IMG/VR virus record: IMGVR_UViG_3300030116_003278
Location: 1-27,296 of that record
Length of the DNA stretch: 27,296 bases
Strand: one strand, 5' to 3'
From: a virus
The first letter of the stretch is position 1, and each line of letters opens with the position of its first letter. The notes below the pieces were generated by a model, which did not search any database, had not been told where the DNA came from, and saw only the letters and a program-made list of their open reading frames with translations. The translations under genes and the position numbers were made by a program. This document shows positions 3,928-10,165 of the stretch, in pieces.

Positions 3928-4569
3928 CTAATTTTCCTTCCTAAAACATCTTTCAATGATCGCATTATTATCGTAAGCCTCTCTAAATAATCTAAATTGG
4001 TCGAAACCTAGTGTTAGTTTTTCTATAGTAAATTCTTTAGTTTCGATTTTACTATTGTTCTTTGGTAGTCTTACAATAATTCCTTTTTGAACCTCGATAT
4101 TATCATTTTGATTTATCAACCAAGCGTATGCACCAAGCTGAATAATCGTATCAGTGTAAATTCTTTTACCAGTTTTAAAATCTATCAATACATATTTGCC
4201 TTCTTTGTCTTGCACCAGAAGATCAGGGCAACCACCAAACTCATAATTTTCACAGACCATCTGCTTCTCAGACCAAACAATCTTATACTCTTGCTTATCC
4301 CACCATTCTGTAAATTTCTTAAAAGCCTTTTGGACTTTTTTATCGTCAGGTATTTCATAATCAAGTCCATGAATATATTTTTCTGCAAGGTCATGAACAC
4401 TTGTGCCTTGCTCCCCTGCCTTATCTCTTTCCTGACGATAGTCTAAACCCTTCTTTCCACAATCCCATGCCCAATGTATAAGAGCATTAGAGTCTTTAAA
4501 ACGACCAATGACTGTTGTTGTTCCGACAACTAATTTACCATTACTTAGTTTGTATTGACCTGTTGGCAT
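3928..4569 (-). CDS. PD-(D/E)XK superfamily (RecB-like) nuclease
   Basis: A 213-residue protein with the motif series of RecB/Cas4-like phage exonucleases: an H in GTSVHDLAEKYI (H59), GGCPDLLV with D116, the core IDFKTGK with D130-x-K132, and QLGAYAW with Q144 and Y148. These residues bind the metal ions and activate water to cleave DNA. There is no iron-sulphur cysteine set as in Cas4. Phage enzymes of this type usually resect double-strand ends for recombination-dependent replication or repair. It is in an operon with an HNH protein and unknowns. Length fits small phage members of the family. Confidence 0.88.
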   Translation of the reverse strand: MPTGQYKLSNGKLVVGTTTVIGRFKDSNALIHWAWDCGKKGLDYRQERDKAGEQGTSVHDLAEKYIHGLDYEIPDDKKVQKAFKKFTEWWDKQEYKIVWSEKQMVCENYEFGGCPDLLVQDKEGKYVLIDFKTGKRIYTDTIIQLGAYAWLINQNDNIEVQKGIIVRLPKNNSKIETKEFTIEKLTLGFDQFRLFREAYDNNAIIERCFRKEN

Positions 4570-7347: not shown

Positions 7348-8094
7348 TTACTCAAAATAATATTTAGCTTTTTGTCTATTTTTGTAGTTATGAACAGATA
7401 ATATACTTTTTAGATTTTCTTCTACTGTATATGCGTTTTTCCATTGATGAGGAAATTTAGTAAAGTTTTCTAAAAAAGTATAAATATCAAAATTATCTTG
7501 CTTTCTTAATTTTAACAAAGCACGAATAAAATAAATCCTATTCCATATTTTAGGCTCTATTTTTGACTCTTTTAACATTAATATTTGACCTTTTACTTTT
7601 TCAAAAACAGGATTTGGAATTTGTAAATTTCCATTCCTAAAGTCAAAATAACTGCTTCTAATTTTATCTTCACCTAAAGATAAATAAGAACAAGCTTCAA
7701 CAACAGTAGAATGAGATACACCTAAAGATACTAATTCTAAATATTTTTTATAGTGTTCTCTATTTTTACTATGTATGACAAAAGCACCTGCAATATCAAT
7801 ATTGTTCCAATTATTTTGAACGGAATTGATATCTCTAATTAAGTCAATTAGTTTGCTTTTTTCTACATGAAAGACAGAATATCGAATGGGAATGTTTAAA
7901 GTTTTACAACATTCAAACCTATTTTGTCCGTCAATTATTTGTTTATATTGATCGACCACAATAGGATTTACCAATCCAAATGTTTTAATACTATCAATCA
8001 TTTTACTTACTTTGGAAGATTTAATTTCTCTATTTCCTTCAACGAATATAAATTCGTGATAGTCATTAGAGGTGTAAATCTGATCTTGTTTCAT
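7348..8094 (-). CDS. ParB/Srx-fold (ParB N-terminal-like) protein
   Basis: A 248-residue protein with a ParB N-terminal domain in its first 80 residues: a helix (KMIDSIKTFGLVNPIVVD) leading to IIDGQNRFECCKTLNIPI, where G56-Q57-N58-R59 matches the GxxR nucleotide-binding box (usually GQHR or GERR). ParB family members bind CTP and DNA; single-domain phage versions act as partition proteins, nucleases or transcription regulators. Residues 100-240 are helical, with a possible HTH near GVSHSTVVEACSYL, but do not match the standard ParB centre. No ParA is seen, so partition is unlikely unless the partner lies outside. It is last in the chain of small genes and is preceded by two hairpins. Confidence 0.78.
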   Translation of the reverse strand: MKQDQIYTSNDYHEFIFVEGNREIKSSKVSKMIDSIKTFGLVNPIVVDQYKQIIDGQNRFECCKTLNIPIRYSVFHVEKSKLIDLIRDINSVQNNWNNIDIAGAFVIHSKNREHYKKYLELVSLGVSHSTVVEACSYLSLGEDKIRSSYFDFRNGNLQIPNPVFEKVKGQILMLKESKIEPKIWNRIYFIRALLKLRKQDNFDIYTFLENFTKFPHQWKNAYTVEENLKSILSVHNYKNRQKAKYYFE

Positions 8095-8110: not shown

Positions 8111-8154
8111 AGTATGCTAAATACATACTTAAAAGCCCTATAAAGAGCTTTTAA
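8111..8154. promoter_or_regulatory. Two adjoining inverted repeats upstream of the ParB-like gene
   Basis: AGTATG (8111-8116) and CATACT (8124-8129) flank a seven-base spacer. Starting at 8129, TTAAAAGC (8129-8136) pairs with GCTTTTAA (8147-8154), with an inner CT/AG pair and an ATAA loop. On the minus-strand message these lie between the stop of the preceding small gene and the ParB-like start. The second can act as a terminator or attenuator; the first could be an operator, perhaps for the ParB-like protein itself. Function is inferred from position. Confidence 0.45.
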
Positions 8155-8162
8155 CTATATAT

Positions 8163-8402
8163 TTAATATTCTAAATTAGTTTTAAAAGTTATTTCGCACT
8201 CTGTTTGATATCCACTATGTTTTTCAGTATAAAATCTAATAATTTCATACAATTCGCCTAAATCATAAGCGTAACTATTTGTATTCAATACTTTTTTTGT
8301 AATCTTAGGTTTTTTATATTTAATACGTTTTTTCTTTTTACTGTCGTAATAGTCTTTTTCTGTAGTAACTGCTGTTACTCTAATATCATTATAGTTTATC
8401 AT
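8163..8402 (-). CDS. Small hypothetical protein
   Basis: A 79-residue protein rich in Lys, Tyr and Thr (DYYDSKKKKRIKYKKPKITK at 17-36), with a beta-looking start and end. The ribosome-binding box AAAAGCGAGG lies six bases before the ATG at 8402. It overlaps the C-terminal end of the next gene upstream by 14 bases in another frame. No family is recognised. Being small, basic and part of a chain of similar genes, it fits the early host-takeover or anti-defence type of phage gene, which is a guess. Confidence 0.6.
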   Translation of the reverse strand: MINYNDIRVTAVTTEKDYYDSKKKKRIKYKKPKITKKVLNTNSYAYDLGELYEIIRFYTEKHSGYQTECEITFKTNLEY

Positions 8403-8574
8403 AGTTTACCTCGCTTTTATTGTTACTAAAATAGTCATAAGATAAAATCTTATTAACTCGTTTGCGTTCCTTTAATCGCTTAACCCTCTCTTTTTCATAA
8501 TCGTATGAGGTCTTACCATTACTGAAACGATATCTGTCGTTGCCGACAAATTCCTTTTTTTCGGTTTTAATCAT
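8389..8574 (-). CDS. Small basic hypothetical protein
   Basis: A 61-residue, strongly basic, helical protein (SYDYEKERVKRLKERKRVNK at 23-42). It is preceded by AAAAGCGAGGA, nine bases before the ATG. Its start lies within the end of the 8567-8728 ORF. Charge suggests nucleic-acid binding. Not recognised; the ribosome-binding box is the main support for it. Confidence 0.55.
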   Translation of the reverse strand: MIKTEKKEFVGNDRYRFSNGKTSYDYEKERVKRLKERKRVNKILSYDYFSNNKSEVNYDKL

Positions 8575-8728
8575 TGTCTTTTTCCTCGCTTTTATCTTCT
8601 TGTATTAGTTCACCTTGAGTAAAGCCTTGTTTTATCATCTCAGCAATATGCTGAAGATCAATTTCATTTGGTTCGTAATTTGGATAATCATCAACTGATA
8701 ATTTCCACCAACTAAATTTTATTGTCAT
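8567..8728 (-). CDS. 53-aa acidic microprotein
   Basis: A 53-residue ORF from ATG 8728 to TAA 8567. It starts MTIKFSWWKLSVDDYPNY and ends in an acidic tail (QEDKSEEKDND). The tail codons contain the ribosome-binding box of the following gene, which fixes the frame relationship. Its own start overlaps the upstream stop (TAATG) and has GAGTGAGGAT in front. Acidic phage microproteins can mimic DNA or block host proteins, but nothing specific is recognised. Confidence 0.55.
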   Translation of the reverse strand: MTIKFSWWKLSVDDYPNYEPNEIDLQHIAEMIKQGFTQGELIQEDKSEEKDND

Positions 8729-8907
8729 TATTTATCCTCACTCTCTTTCTCGATTTCTTGAATATCTTGTATTTCATGATCTTTTAATTCTATCCCATGA
8801 AATTCGTTAAATTGTTCTTTTAACTTTTCTATATAATCGTATTTGCTCTCAGCTTCTAAATTATTAATTGAAAAAGTTATAACAATATTTGATGTATATT
8901 CTTTCAT
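8728..8907 (-). CDS. 59-aa acidic microprotein
   Basis: A 59-residue ORF from ATG 8907 to TAA 8728, joined to the next gene by TAATG. It begins with a beta-like stretch (TSNIVITFSINNLEAESKYD) and continues as an acidic helix (EIQDIQEIEKESEDK). AAAAAGCGAGGAA lies just before the start. Not recognised. The strong ribosome-binding box and tight coupling support translation. Confidence 0.55.
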   Translation of the reverse strand: MKEYTSNIVITFSINNLEAESKYDYIEKLKEQFNEFHGIELKDHEIQDIQEIEKESEDK

Positions 8908-9078
8908 TTATTCCTCGCTTTTTCTTGTATAATTAAACAAATTAAAAATTAATGTAGGTTTTCCGTTTGACTTGGAATACATTTTGTTAATTAATATTGC
9001 TATTTCCATAAGTTCATTAAAAGTTAATCCTTCTAACTCTCTTTCAATGTCATGTTGTAATAATTTCTGATTACTCAC
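8908..9078 (-). CDS. 56-aa microprotein with GTG start
   Basis: A 56-residue ORF beginning with GTG at 9078, six bases after AAAGCGAGG. It is a helical peptide (IERELEGLTFNELMEIAILI) with a basic, aromatic C-terminal part (FNLFNYTRKSEE). Its last codons encode the ribosome-binding box for the next ORF and its stop lies one base from that start. No family is recognised. Confidence 0.5.
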   Translation of the reverse strand: MSNQKLLQHDIERELEGLTFNELMEIAILINKMYSKSNGKPTLIFNLFNYTRKSEE

Positions 9079-9262
9079 TTTTTACCTCGCTTTCTTTTAA
9101 TTCATAATGATGAATACAATCAGCACCATTTATGGTTTTATCTTCATTTAAACTATAAATAGCTAAATATTTTTTTTCTTTATCGCTAAAAAGATTAATT
9201 GCGTATTGAACTCCATTTTCTTCAATGGTAGCCCAATTATCAATCGGATAATGTATAATCAT
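9071..9262 (-). CDS. Small hypothetical protein
   Basis: A 63-residue protein with a beta-rich, aromatic body (YPIDNWATIEENGVQYAINL, KKYLAIYSL) and a short acidic tail. It looks like a small compact fold, similar in style to phage proteins of unknown role that begin with a WxxIxxNGxxY pattern. The start at 9262 overlaps the upstream stop as ATGA, and AAGTGAGGAT precedes it by four bases. The C-terminal codons hold the ribosome-binding box of the following gene. Confidence 0.6.
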   Translation of the reverse strand: MIIHYPIDNWATIEENGVQYAINLFSDKEKKYLAIYSLNEDKTINGADCIHHYELKESEVKSE

Positions 9263-9366
9263 TTATCCTCACTTTCTTTCTTAGCTCTTTTATAAAGTTT
9301 GTAAGATACATAAAAGAACGCAACCAATAAAATTAAGTCTAATCCGTTAAGTCCATAAAAAGGCAT
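9259..9366 (-). CDS. 35-aa single-pass membrane microprotein
   Basis: A 35-residue ORF from ATG 9366 to TGA 9259. Residues 8-24 are hydrophobic (GLDLILLVAFFYVSY) and are followed by a basic stretch (KLYKRAKKE), so it probably inserts with its C-terminus in the cytoplasm. AAAGCGAGG lies five bases before the start and the stop overlaps the next start (ATGA). A membrane-active role, for instance exclusion of other phages, is possible but unproven. Confidence 0.55.
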   Translation of the reverse strand: MPFYGLNGLDLILLVAFFYVSYKLYKRAKKESEDK

Positions 9367-9383
9367 AACAACCTCGCTTTCTT

Positions 9384-9428
9384 CAATATCATTATAGATA
9401 TTGATCTAAGGGCTATTGAAAGCCCTTA
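9384..9428. promoter_or_regulatory. Two tandem hairpins within the small-gene operon
   Basis: CAATATC (9384-9390) pairs with GATATTG (9397-9403), and TAAGGGCT (9407-9414) pairs perfectly with AGCCCTTA (9421-9428) around a six-base loop. They fill the only sizeable gap in the chain, between the 48-residue HTH ORF and the membrane microprotein. The second could be a terminator or a processing site that sets different levels for the two halves of the operon; no strong T-run follows on the minus strand. Confidence 0.45.
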
Positions 9429-9437
9429 AATAAATAT

Positions 9438-9584
9438 CTAATTGTTATTATAAATGCGACCTAAGTTAATCAATCTATTTGCTGTTTCTTGGCTTATTCC
9501 GTAAGCGTCAGCAATAGCTTGAACAGTCAAATAATTATTAAAGTAATCAAGATAAAACTCGACTGCGTTTATTGTTCTTAACAT
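9438..9584 (-). CDS. 48-aa helix-turn-helix microprotein
   Basis: A 48-residue ORF starting at ATG 9584 inside the end of the upstream gene (ATGTTAA overlap). Residues 18-42 (LTVQAIADAYGISQETANRL) make a standard helix-turn-helix with the expected Ala-x3-Gly-Ile-Ser turn. It is probably a small DNA-binding regulator, perhaps of this operon. Unlike most neighbours it has no separate ribosome-binding box, so its translation should depend on the upstream gene. Confidence 0.65.
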   Translation of the reverse strand: MLRTINAVEFYLDYFNNYLTVQAIADAYGISQETANRLINLGRIYNNN

Positions 9585-9799
9585 TCTGATAGTTCACTTT
9601 CTAATAAAACTAATCTTACTACTTGATATGTTTTATAAACTTCTTTAGCTTCTTTAAGTGTCAAATTGTGAACACTACGCAAAGCCAAAAATTTATTTTC
9701 TTTATCTTTTTTTATGATCTCATCATTCATATTTAAAAGACTAGCCACAGCGAAAGATATGTTTCTGTCGTGGTGATACTGAAAAGGATTGTTATCCAT
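9578..9799 (-). CDS. Small hypothetical protein
   Basis: A 73-residue helical protein (NISFAVASLLNMNDEIIKKD; LTLKEAKEVYKTYQVVRLVL). TAGCGAGG lies five bases before the ATG at 9799. The LTLKEAKE segment is a typical helix cap, but I recognise no family. It starts 15 bases after the 9814-10107 gene ends and is overlapped at its end by the HTH microprotein. Confidence 0.6.
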   Translation of the reverse strand: MDNNPFQYHHDRNISFAVASLLNMNDEIIKKDKENKFLALRSVHNLTLKEAKEVYKTYQVVRLVLLESELSEC

Positions 9800-9813
9800 A
9801 ATTACCTCGCTAT

Positions 9814-10107
9814 CTAAAATGCTTGAATAATAATCGCTTCACTGTTTGGAACTTCAATAACAGTGGTAGCATTTCTTAATTCTTCCAAGCTGTTCACACT
9901 GTCATATTGATCCAAACATTCTTCGAGAGTTTCATACTCATCAAAATCACATCTGAACGCAATCGGATCAAACTCCAATTCAGTGTCGCAACTTTCTTCA
10001 TACTCTGTTAAGTAATTAAATAAGGCTTTAGATCCTTCATAACTAAATCCAAATCCTTCTTTGGTCATCTCATCAGTAAACTGAGAGCTTGTAATTGTAT
10101 CTTTCAT
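9814..10107 (-). CDS. Conserved acidic phage protein, first gene of the small-gene operon
   Basis: I use the ATG at 10107 rather than one five codons upstream because the ribosome-binding box (GCGAGG) would otherwise lie inside the gene. It encodes 97 very acidic residues. The pattern FGFSYEGSKALFNYLTEYEE, then DPIAFRCDFDEYETLEE, matches a widespread marine and enteric phage family with a YEGxxALFxYLxxLEE core, of unknown function. The acidic surface could mimic DNA. A sigma70-like promoter (10135-10165) lies immediately upstream, making this the first and probably strongest expressed gene of the block. Confidence 0.75.
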   Translation of the reverse strand: MKDTITSSQFTDEMTKEGFGFSYEGSKALFNYLTEYEESCDTELEFDPIAFRCDFDEYETLEECLDQYDSVNSLEELRNATTVIEVPNSEAIIIQAF

Positions 10108-10134
10108 GATATTACCTCGCATTATTAATTATTT

Positions 10135-10165
10135 ATAATAGATCAAATATTAAAGAATATGTCAA
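10135..10165 (-). promoter_or_regulatory. Sigma70-like promoter for the small-gene operon
   Basis: Read on the minus strand, a consensus TTGACA (10165-10160) and TATTAT (10140-10135) are separated by 19 bases, slightly longer than the usual 17. The predicted transcript would begin some 20 bases before the ribosome-binding box of the 9814-10107 gene. The perfect -35 and the position make this the best promoter I see in the window. Confidence 0.6.

Follow-up and report, generated by a model that had tools for sequence, protein, structure and literature searches.

A minus-strand operon of small genes and its recurrent start-site box

The IMG/VR virus record IMGVR_UViG_3300030116_003278 was analysed at its full length, positions 1-27,296 (27,296 bases; hereafter the window), and encodes a TerL about 50% identical to the TerL of HTVC010P-type pelagiphages. 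Left of terL and on the opposite strand, ten small genes form a minus-strand operon at 8163-10122, with gene ends at 8163, 8389, 8567, 8728, 8908, 9071, 9259, 9438, 9578 and 9814. Nine of the ten start 4-9 nucleotides (nt) after the hexamer G[C/T]GAGG (GYGAGG), usually within the longer form (A)AAAG[C/T]GAGG, and this box is the subject of the present analysis. A sequence-only reading of the window had proposed that nine starts in one operon each follow GCGAGG or GTGAGG. All nine starts lie on the minus strand and were found so preceded at the positions proposed. The tenth gene (9438-9584, minus strand) has GTGAAC in place of the box, and the start at 9078 is a GTG codon.

The core of the box is GCGAGG at seven of the nine starts and GTGAGG at the other two, and its distances to the start (6, 9, 7, 5, 6, 4, 5, 5 and 7 nt) all lie within the approximately 4-10 nt of a Shine-Dalgarno (SD) site. 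The exact 9-mer AAAGCGAGG has five copies in the window, every one on the minus strand of the operon block: at 8409-8417 (6 nt ahead of the start at 8402), 8584-8592 (9 nt, 8574), 8913-8921 (5 nt, 8907), 9085-9093 (6 nt, the GTG at 9078) and 9372-9380 (5 nt, 9366), the last being intergenic with a hairpin and a palindrome upstream. The remaining four boxes, also on the minus strand, are spelled AGAGTGAGG (8736-8744, 7 nt ahead of 8728), AAAGTGAGG (9267-9275, 4 nt, 9262), ATAGCGAGG (9805-9813, 5 nt, 9799) and AATGCGAGG (10115-10123, 7 nt, 10107), the latter in the operon leader. The open reading frame (ORF) finder set the start of the first gene at 10122, but that ATG falls within the box AATGCGAGG; the gene starts at 10107 only if this box is its ribosome-binding site (RBS).

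Over the whole window, the minus strand has 14 occurrences of GYGAGG and the plus strand none, and AAAGCGAGG with at most one mismatch gives 15 matches against 3.2 (sd 1.7) in shuffled sequence. Conservation extends beyond GAGG and the box precedes unrelated proteins, both as the sequence-only reading had it. In particular, A fills 24 of the 27 cells formed by the three bases ahead of GYGAGG, and in all nine boxes a pyrimidine (C or T) follows the first G. Six boxes lie within the 3' end of the upstream ORF, always in the frame AA-AGY-GAG-G that encodes Ser-Glu (the box entered at 8745 in the frame listing is counted from one base earlier), with overlapping stop and start codons a few bases further on. 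The other three, operon leader included, lie outside any upstream ORF, and therefore the shared feature is a nucleotide sequence and not a peptide.

Restriction of the box to the operon among close relatives

The window and 20 relatives with TerL proteins 89-100% identical, chosen mainly for the length available upstream of TerL among 80 TerL loci and 12 ParB loci, were oriented by terL. Gene calling was crude, taking greedily the longest ORF with the start nearest the upstream stop and making no use of the SD; two of the nine starts in the window were placed wrongly, which leaves seven of the nine window boxes in the count, and the operon module contains false ORFs that lower its box percentage. 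In these 21 records, GYGAGG stands 2-12 nt before 47 of the 185 called operon starts, with the near-duplicate pairs L028/L084 and L018/L020 kept in the count, and before none of the 203 TerL-strand starts from terL onward. It is found at 2 of 189 other operon-strand starts and 2 of 282 other TerL-strand starts, together 4/471. Given any GAGG, the GYGAGG form makes up 47 of 66 cases in the operon vs 4 of 53 elsewhere, and after removal of the window and the two near-duplicate records the comparison is 34/157 against 4/594 (Fisher p 1e-20). Across whole records, 17 of the 21 have AAAG[CT]GAGG on the strand that does not encode TerL, and none has it on the TerL strand; its copy number is highest in the window (six).

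These data identify a real RBS spelling that is specific to the operon. The link to the operon and not to the structural genes that had been proposed from the sequence alone is borne out among close relatives, in which the box is not equally frequent before structural genes; it does not extend to the distant isolates described below. The box as the general RBS of the phage was rejected on the same 0/203. The number of boxes also varies, as the relatives hold 0-5 in the same operon by the count that gives seven in the window. Two of them, G009 and G018 (TerL about 90%), have no GYGAGG before operon starts and use GGAG before 6/10 and 5/9 of these, respectively, mostly as AAGGAGA; their operon gene families are largely different from those of the other records. 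In the operon left of terL of these two records, AAGGAGA(TAAATA) precedes many starts and the upstream proteins often end in EGDK.

Complementarity to an alpha-type 16S tail

Canonical SD sites are purine-rich, lie 4-9 nt before the start, have a GAGG core and are complementary to the 3' end of the 16S ribosomal RNA. The box resembles these in composition, spacing and core. Unlike them, it has an extra pyrimidine between AGAAAG and GAGG, and one spelling runs through the operon and not elsewhere in the genome. The segments AGAAAG and GAGG are each complementary to adjoining parts of the alpha-type 16S tail CCUCCUUUCU, with the C or T between them left without a partner. RNAduplex gives -11.6 for the box AGAAAGCGAGG on this tail, with a one-base bulge, and -15.4 when the insert is taken out; the late-type site AGAAAGGA, used by some late genes, reaches -10.0, and GCGAGG minus the upstream A/G stretch reaches -5.3. 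The median duplex energy is -10.6 for box-bearing starts vs -5.8 for the STRUCT module.

In one Pelagibacteraceae genome, the 16S gene ends in ACCTCCTTTCTAAGGATG, which confirms the alpha-type tail there, and AAAGYGAGG-ATG sites number two in 1.2 Mb; therefore, the box is not the ordinary RBS of that genome. The box as the general RBS of the presumed host was rejected on this evidence.

Gene reshuffling and sequence identity ending at the box

The genes of the 21 records were grouped into families, near-duplicates being dropped from the counts. Family F1 has 11 different preceding neighbours in 15 occurrences and F2 has 9 in 11, and both gene orders are seen for three family pairs (F2/F7, F27/F7 and F28/F7). 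When the same gene follows different neighbours, upstream identity is 0.46-0.47 over positions -1 to -18 and drops to 0.31-0.38 farther upstream. Where the neighbour is shared, identity is 0.60-0.75 across the full 60 bases, and between different genes it is 0.28-0.38.

Individual junctions show where identity ends. The window and L028 share exactly 44 nt ending in AAAGCGA, after which 16 of 60 positions are identical and the genes differ; L006 and L028 share 63 nt with the same ending, followed by 12/60 and again by different genes. The leaders of the window and G001 are identical over 51 nt to GCGA plus 6 nt after it, then 14/60, and lead into different first genes. The leader has a promoter-like TTGACA (10165-10160) and TATTAT (10140-10135) separated by 19 nt (10135-10165, minus strand, coordinates read from the sequence), which the pattern used detected in 10 of the 20 other oriented records. 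It was absent from the consensus promoter scan, which accepts spacers of 16-18. An intergenic element at 9383-9427 (minus strand, likewise read from the sequence), made of a hairpin AAGGGCTTT..AGCCCTT (9408-9427) and a palindrome TCAATATC-TATAAT-GATATTGA (9383-9404), is the same in relatives up to the box and is then followed by different genes. This element could be an internal promoter/operator or a processing site. A GGGCTTT..AGCCC hairpin followed by this palindrome also stands before F1 or F6 genes in L028 (about 8594), L006 (about 2787) and G001 (about 12464).

Among the distinct tails of F2 genes, GAGG is kept in 10 of 11 and GYGAGG in 7 of 11. The seams there read K-E (AAAGAGGT), K-S-E (AAAAGYGAGGT) and K-N-S-E or K-N-C-E; thus, the SD core is retained through spelling changes that amount to whole codons.

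The sequence-only reading had preferred a shared control element to common descent of the genes. This part has to be revised, because relatives agree exactly in promoter or intergenic DNA as far as the box, beyond which their genes differ, and because the same gene is found beside many different neighbours: the junctions show common descent, though the genes do not.

Distant isolates, unrelated phages and wider scans

Operon specificity is gone at the distance of the isolates HTVC010P, Greip and HTVC024P, and the box is rare there: it precedes 0/6, 1/7 and 1/13 genes of the corresponding operons and 1/58, 1/50 and 2/49 of the others, respectively. GCGAGG (TATGCGAGG..TTCTA) stands before one structural-strand gene, apparently the same in the three isolates (HTVC010P, L086 11095; Greip, L087 12385; HTVC024P, L088 25212), so the core can precede late genes in distant relatives.

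The record G021, which contains L155, has 12 AAAGYGAGG copies on one strand, most of them before a run of consecutive small genes and 11 of them within its locus L335 (G021:C1, 8768-13706, minus strand). Over the whole record, AGGA is found at 32 and GGAG at 22 of 56 called starts, and most genes without the box use these. None of 136 window frames of at least 50 amino acids matched G021 at E 1e-5.

In a search with AAAGYGAGGWWAATAATG, at least two boxes on the strand were found in 21 of 116 new loci vs 1 of 98 for a permuted control, the former set having been selected for one box. Counts in viral contigs show no overall enrichment of the box (117 vs 98 for the permuted control, which contains GGAG and is thus a poor one). 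Among the matches listed, at least three boxes on the strand occur in 9 of 120 for the Y box and 3 of 117 for the R box, two scans comparable in clustering and not in total numbers. Y-set boxes inside upstream ORFs favour the Ser-Glu frame, again among the matches listed (24/39 for C and 30/45 for T). In a scan of genome contigs, AGAAAGYGAGGWAAATAATG matched 22 scattered loci, among which no clade was judged to stand out.

A Shine-Dalgarno site that probably doubles as a seam between genes

The explanation that we favour, with a probability of roughly 0.6, is that the box is an SD site, AGAAAG-Y-GAGG, and at the same time the seam at which genes of a reshuffled early operon are joined. In each box, AGAAAG and GAGG would pair with the tail CCUCCUUUCU while the pyrimidine between them has no partner, and the box would start translation of the downstream gene; where genes overlap, its position suggests that it sits where a terminating ribosome hands over to the next start. 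Small-gene cassettes would be exchanged among phages of this group with breakpoints at the stop/SD/start junction, since a joint at this place disrupts neither gene and preserves an RBS, and joints of this kind would spread one junction spelling through the operon. The phage's own exonuclease (PHROG 298; 3928-4569, minus strand) is a candidate recombination enzyme for such exchange.

Several points weigh against this explanation. The pairing leaves the extra C or T unaccounted for, because any base could bulge. From L006 to L085, the N of AAAGNGAGG before ATG is C in 31, A in 18, T in 3 and G in 1. Moreover, AAAGCGA persists without GG in two leaders and several junctions (AAAGCGAAAT, AAAGCGAGT), forms that pair more weakly as SD sites. 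The shuffling statistics are weakened by gapless identity profiles and non-independent pairs. The host is presumed from TerL relatives, which leaves its 16S tail presumptive as well; the window TerL against the genome collection gave 10 pattern matches and no relative. Finally, the box spans phages unrelated to the window, such as L155/G021 with its 12 copies, and therefore descent within the window's phage group is not the whole story.

A rival explanation is a start-associated control element, in which the box, beyond its SD core, would be recognised by a protein or RNA of phage or host origin that governs translation of the operon, the role proposed for the start-associated sequences (SAS) of cluster K mycobacteriophages. 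Such an element would agree with conservation beyond GAGG, with confinement to one non-structural operon, with the C/T preference at the unpaired position and with the retention of AAAGCGA in places where GG is lost. We nevertheless regard it as rather unlikely, since the F2 tails keep GAGG more often than GYGAGG, the relatives hold fewer boxes than the window, and no candidate binding protein was identified, the sole regulator-like gene of the operon (9438-9584) encoding a product with a helix-turn-helix (HTH) likeness below Pfam's cut-off. The wholesale respelling as AAGGAGA in G009/G018 also speaks against a box read by a conserved regulator, for which it would be unexpected, although a switch of regulator is possible. 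Neither exchange nor a regulator would be needed if each gene had evolved the same host-optimal SD separately. The SD-like position and spacing, the strong pairing with the alpha-type tail and the recurrence of the box in unrelated phages are in keeping with such independent selection; it is unlikely in view of the lack of the box in the TerL-strand module of the same phages and its two occurrences in the 1.2 Mb of the Pelagibacteraceae genome, and the breakpoints, with identity stopping at the box, had already weakened it.

The recurrence in unrelated phages also bears on a doubtful further idea, to which we give little credence: that (A)GAAAG-Y-GAGG forms a class of its own among phage translation start signals, a bulged-pyrimidine SD with strong pairing and no GGAG or AGGA that sets a small early-gene operon apart and was reached independently by unrelated phages. 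L155/G021, with the box through its small-gene run and no match to a window protein at E 1e-5, is the case cited for independent origin; the purpose of such a class might be, for instance, hiding the operon from an SD-directed nuclease or favouring altered ribosomes. Least probable is a coding constraint, in which a conserved C-terminal Lys/Glu-Ser-Glu tail on the proteins encoded upstream would underlie the shared sequence. The single frame of the six in-ORF boxes, dominant in other phages too, would suit it, but the three boxes outside upstream ORFs do not, and the G010 box is in another frame (proteins ending NKMKAR and EMKASK). The pure C-terminal-tail version was rejected because of the intergenic copies, and its weaker form, a frame preference, stands. 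The T form as a means of placing a TGA stop inside the SD was likewise rejected, this being true for a few copies only.

Neighbouring genes and features

Most operon proteins have no family match. The product of the first gene (9814-10122) matches PHROG 9974, of unknown function, and has distant matches (E about 1e-7) in phages of Microcystis and of Campylobacter. A terminator-like hairpin at 8129-8154 (minus strand) ends the operon and separates it from the downstream gene for a ParB-like protein (7348-8094, minus strand). The RBS of the latter (AGAAAGAGAATAAATC) lacks the box, as it does in relatives where a ParB-like gene was called.

Relation to known systems and significance

The closest parallels to the box are two elements known from other phages. 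Cluster K mycobacteriophages have the SAS, which the relevant passages of the sources describe as a 13-bp sequence, GGGATAGGAGCCC, with an SD core, located just before the starts of non-structural genes only and of unknown function (PMC3203893, PMC11373665, PMC12699233). As far as the description in PMC3203893 goes, the box resembles the SAS in being short, in having an SD core, in standing in a single orientation a few nt before the starts of genes from different families, in its confinement to the non-structural part and in its conservation beyond the canonical SD, the SAS varying between subclusters. Indeed, a location directly upstream of starts and restricted to non-structural genes is what the counts of 47/185 vs 0/203 show. 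However, the box is not a member of the SAS, from which it differs in both sequence and context. The SAS consensus is not matched, since each of the nine boxes is spelled (A)AAAGYGAGG or deviates from it by one base, and AGAAAGYGAGG is A/G-rich and largely complementary to the 16S tail; the SAS is mostly found in intergenic gaps of >50 bp, whereas the upstream gene contains six of the nine boxes in its 3' end; and the box copies are not each preceded by an ESAS-type paired repeat such as that account gives (PMC3203893).

The second parallel comes from lambdoid phages, whose mosaic junctions carry short conserved boundary sequences (Clark et al. 2001; Susskind and Botstein 1978, as cited in PMC3029335). 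In the terms of that account, the box is likewise a short shared sequence between cassettes at which the similarity of phages stops and gene exchange is possible; it differs in being itself the RBS and in being repeated at nearly every junction of one operon (PMC3029335). Our literature search found no paper on pelagiphage ribosome-binding sites and, among the results listed, nothing on bulged SD sites in phages.

Collectively, these observations link RBS spelling and gene-cassette mosaicism, which are usually treated apart, in an abundant marine phage type, and would offer a concrete case of a ribosome-binding site acting as the seam between exchangeable genes. If the bulged-SD reading is true, the box may also serve as a marker for a separately translated class of genes in many phages.

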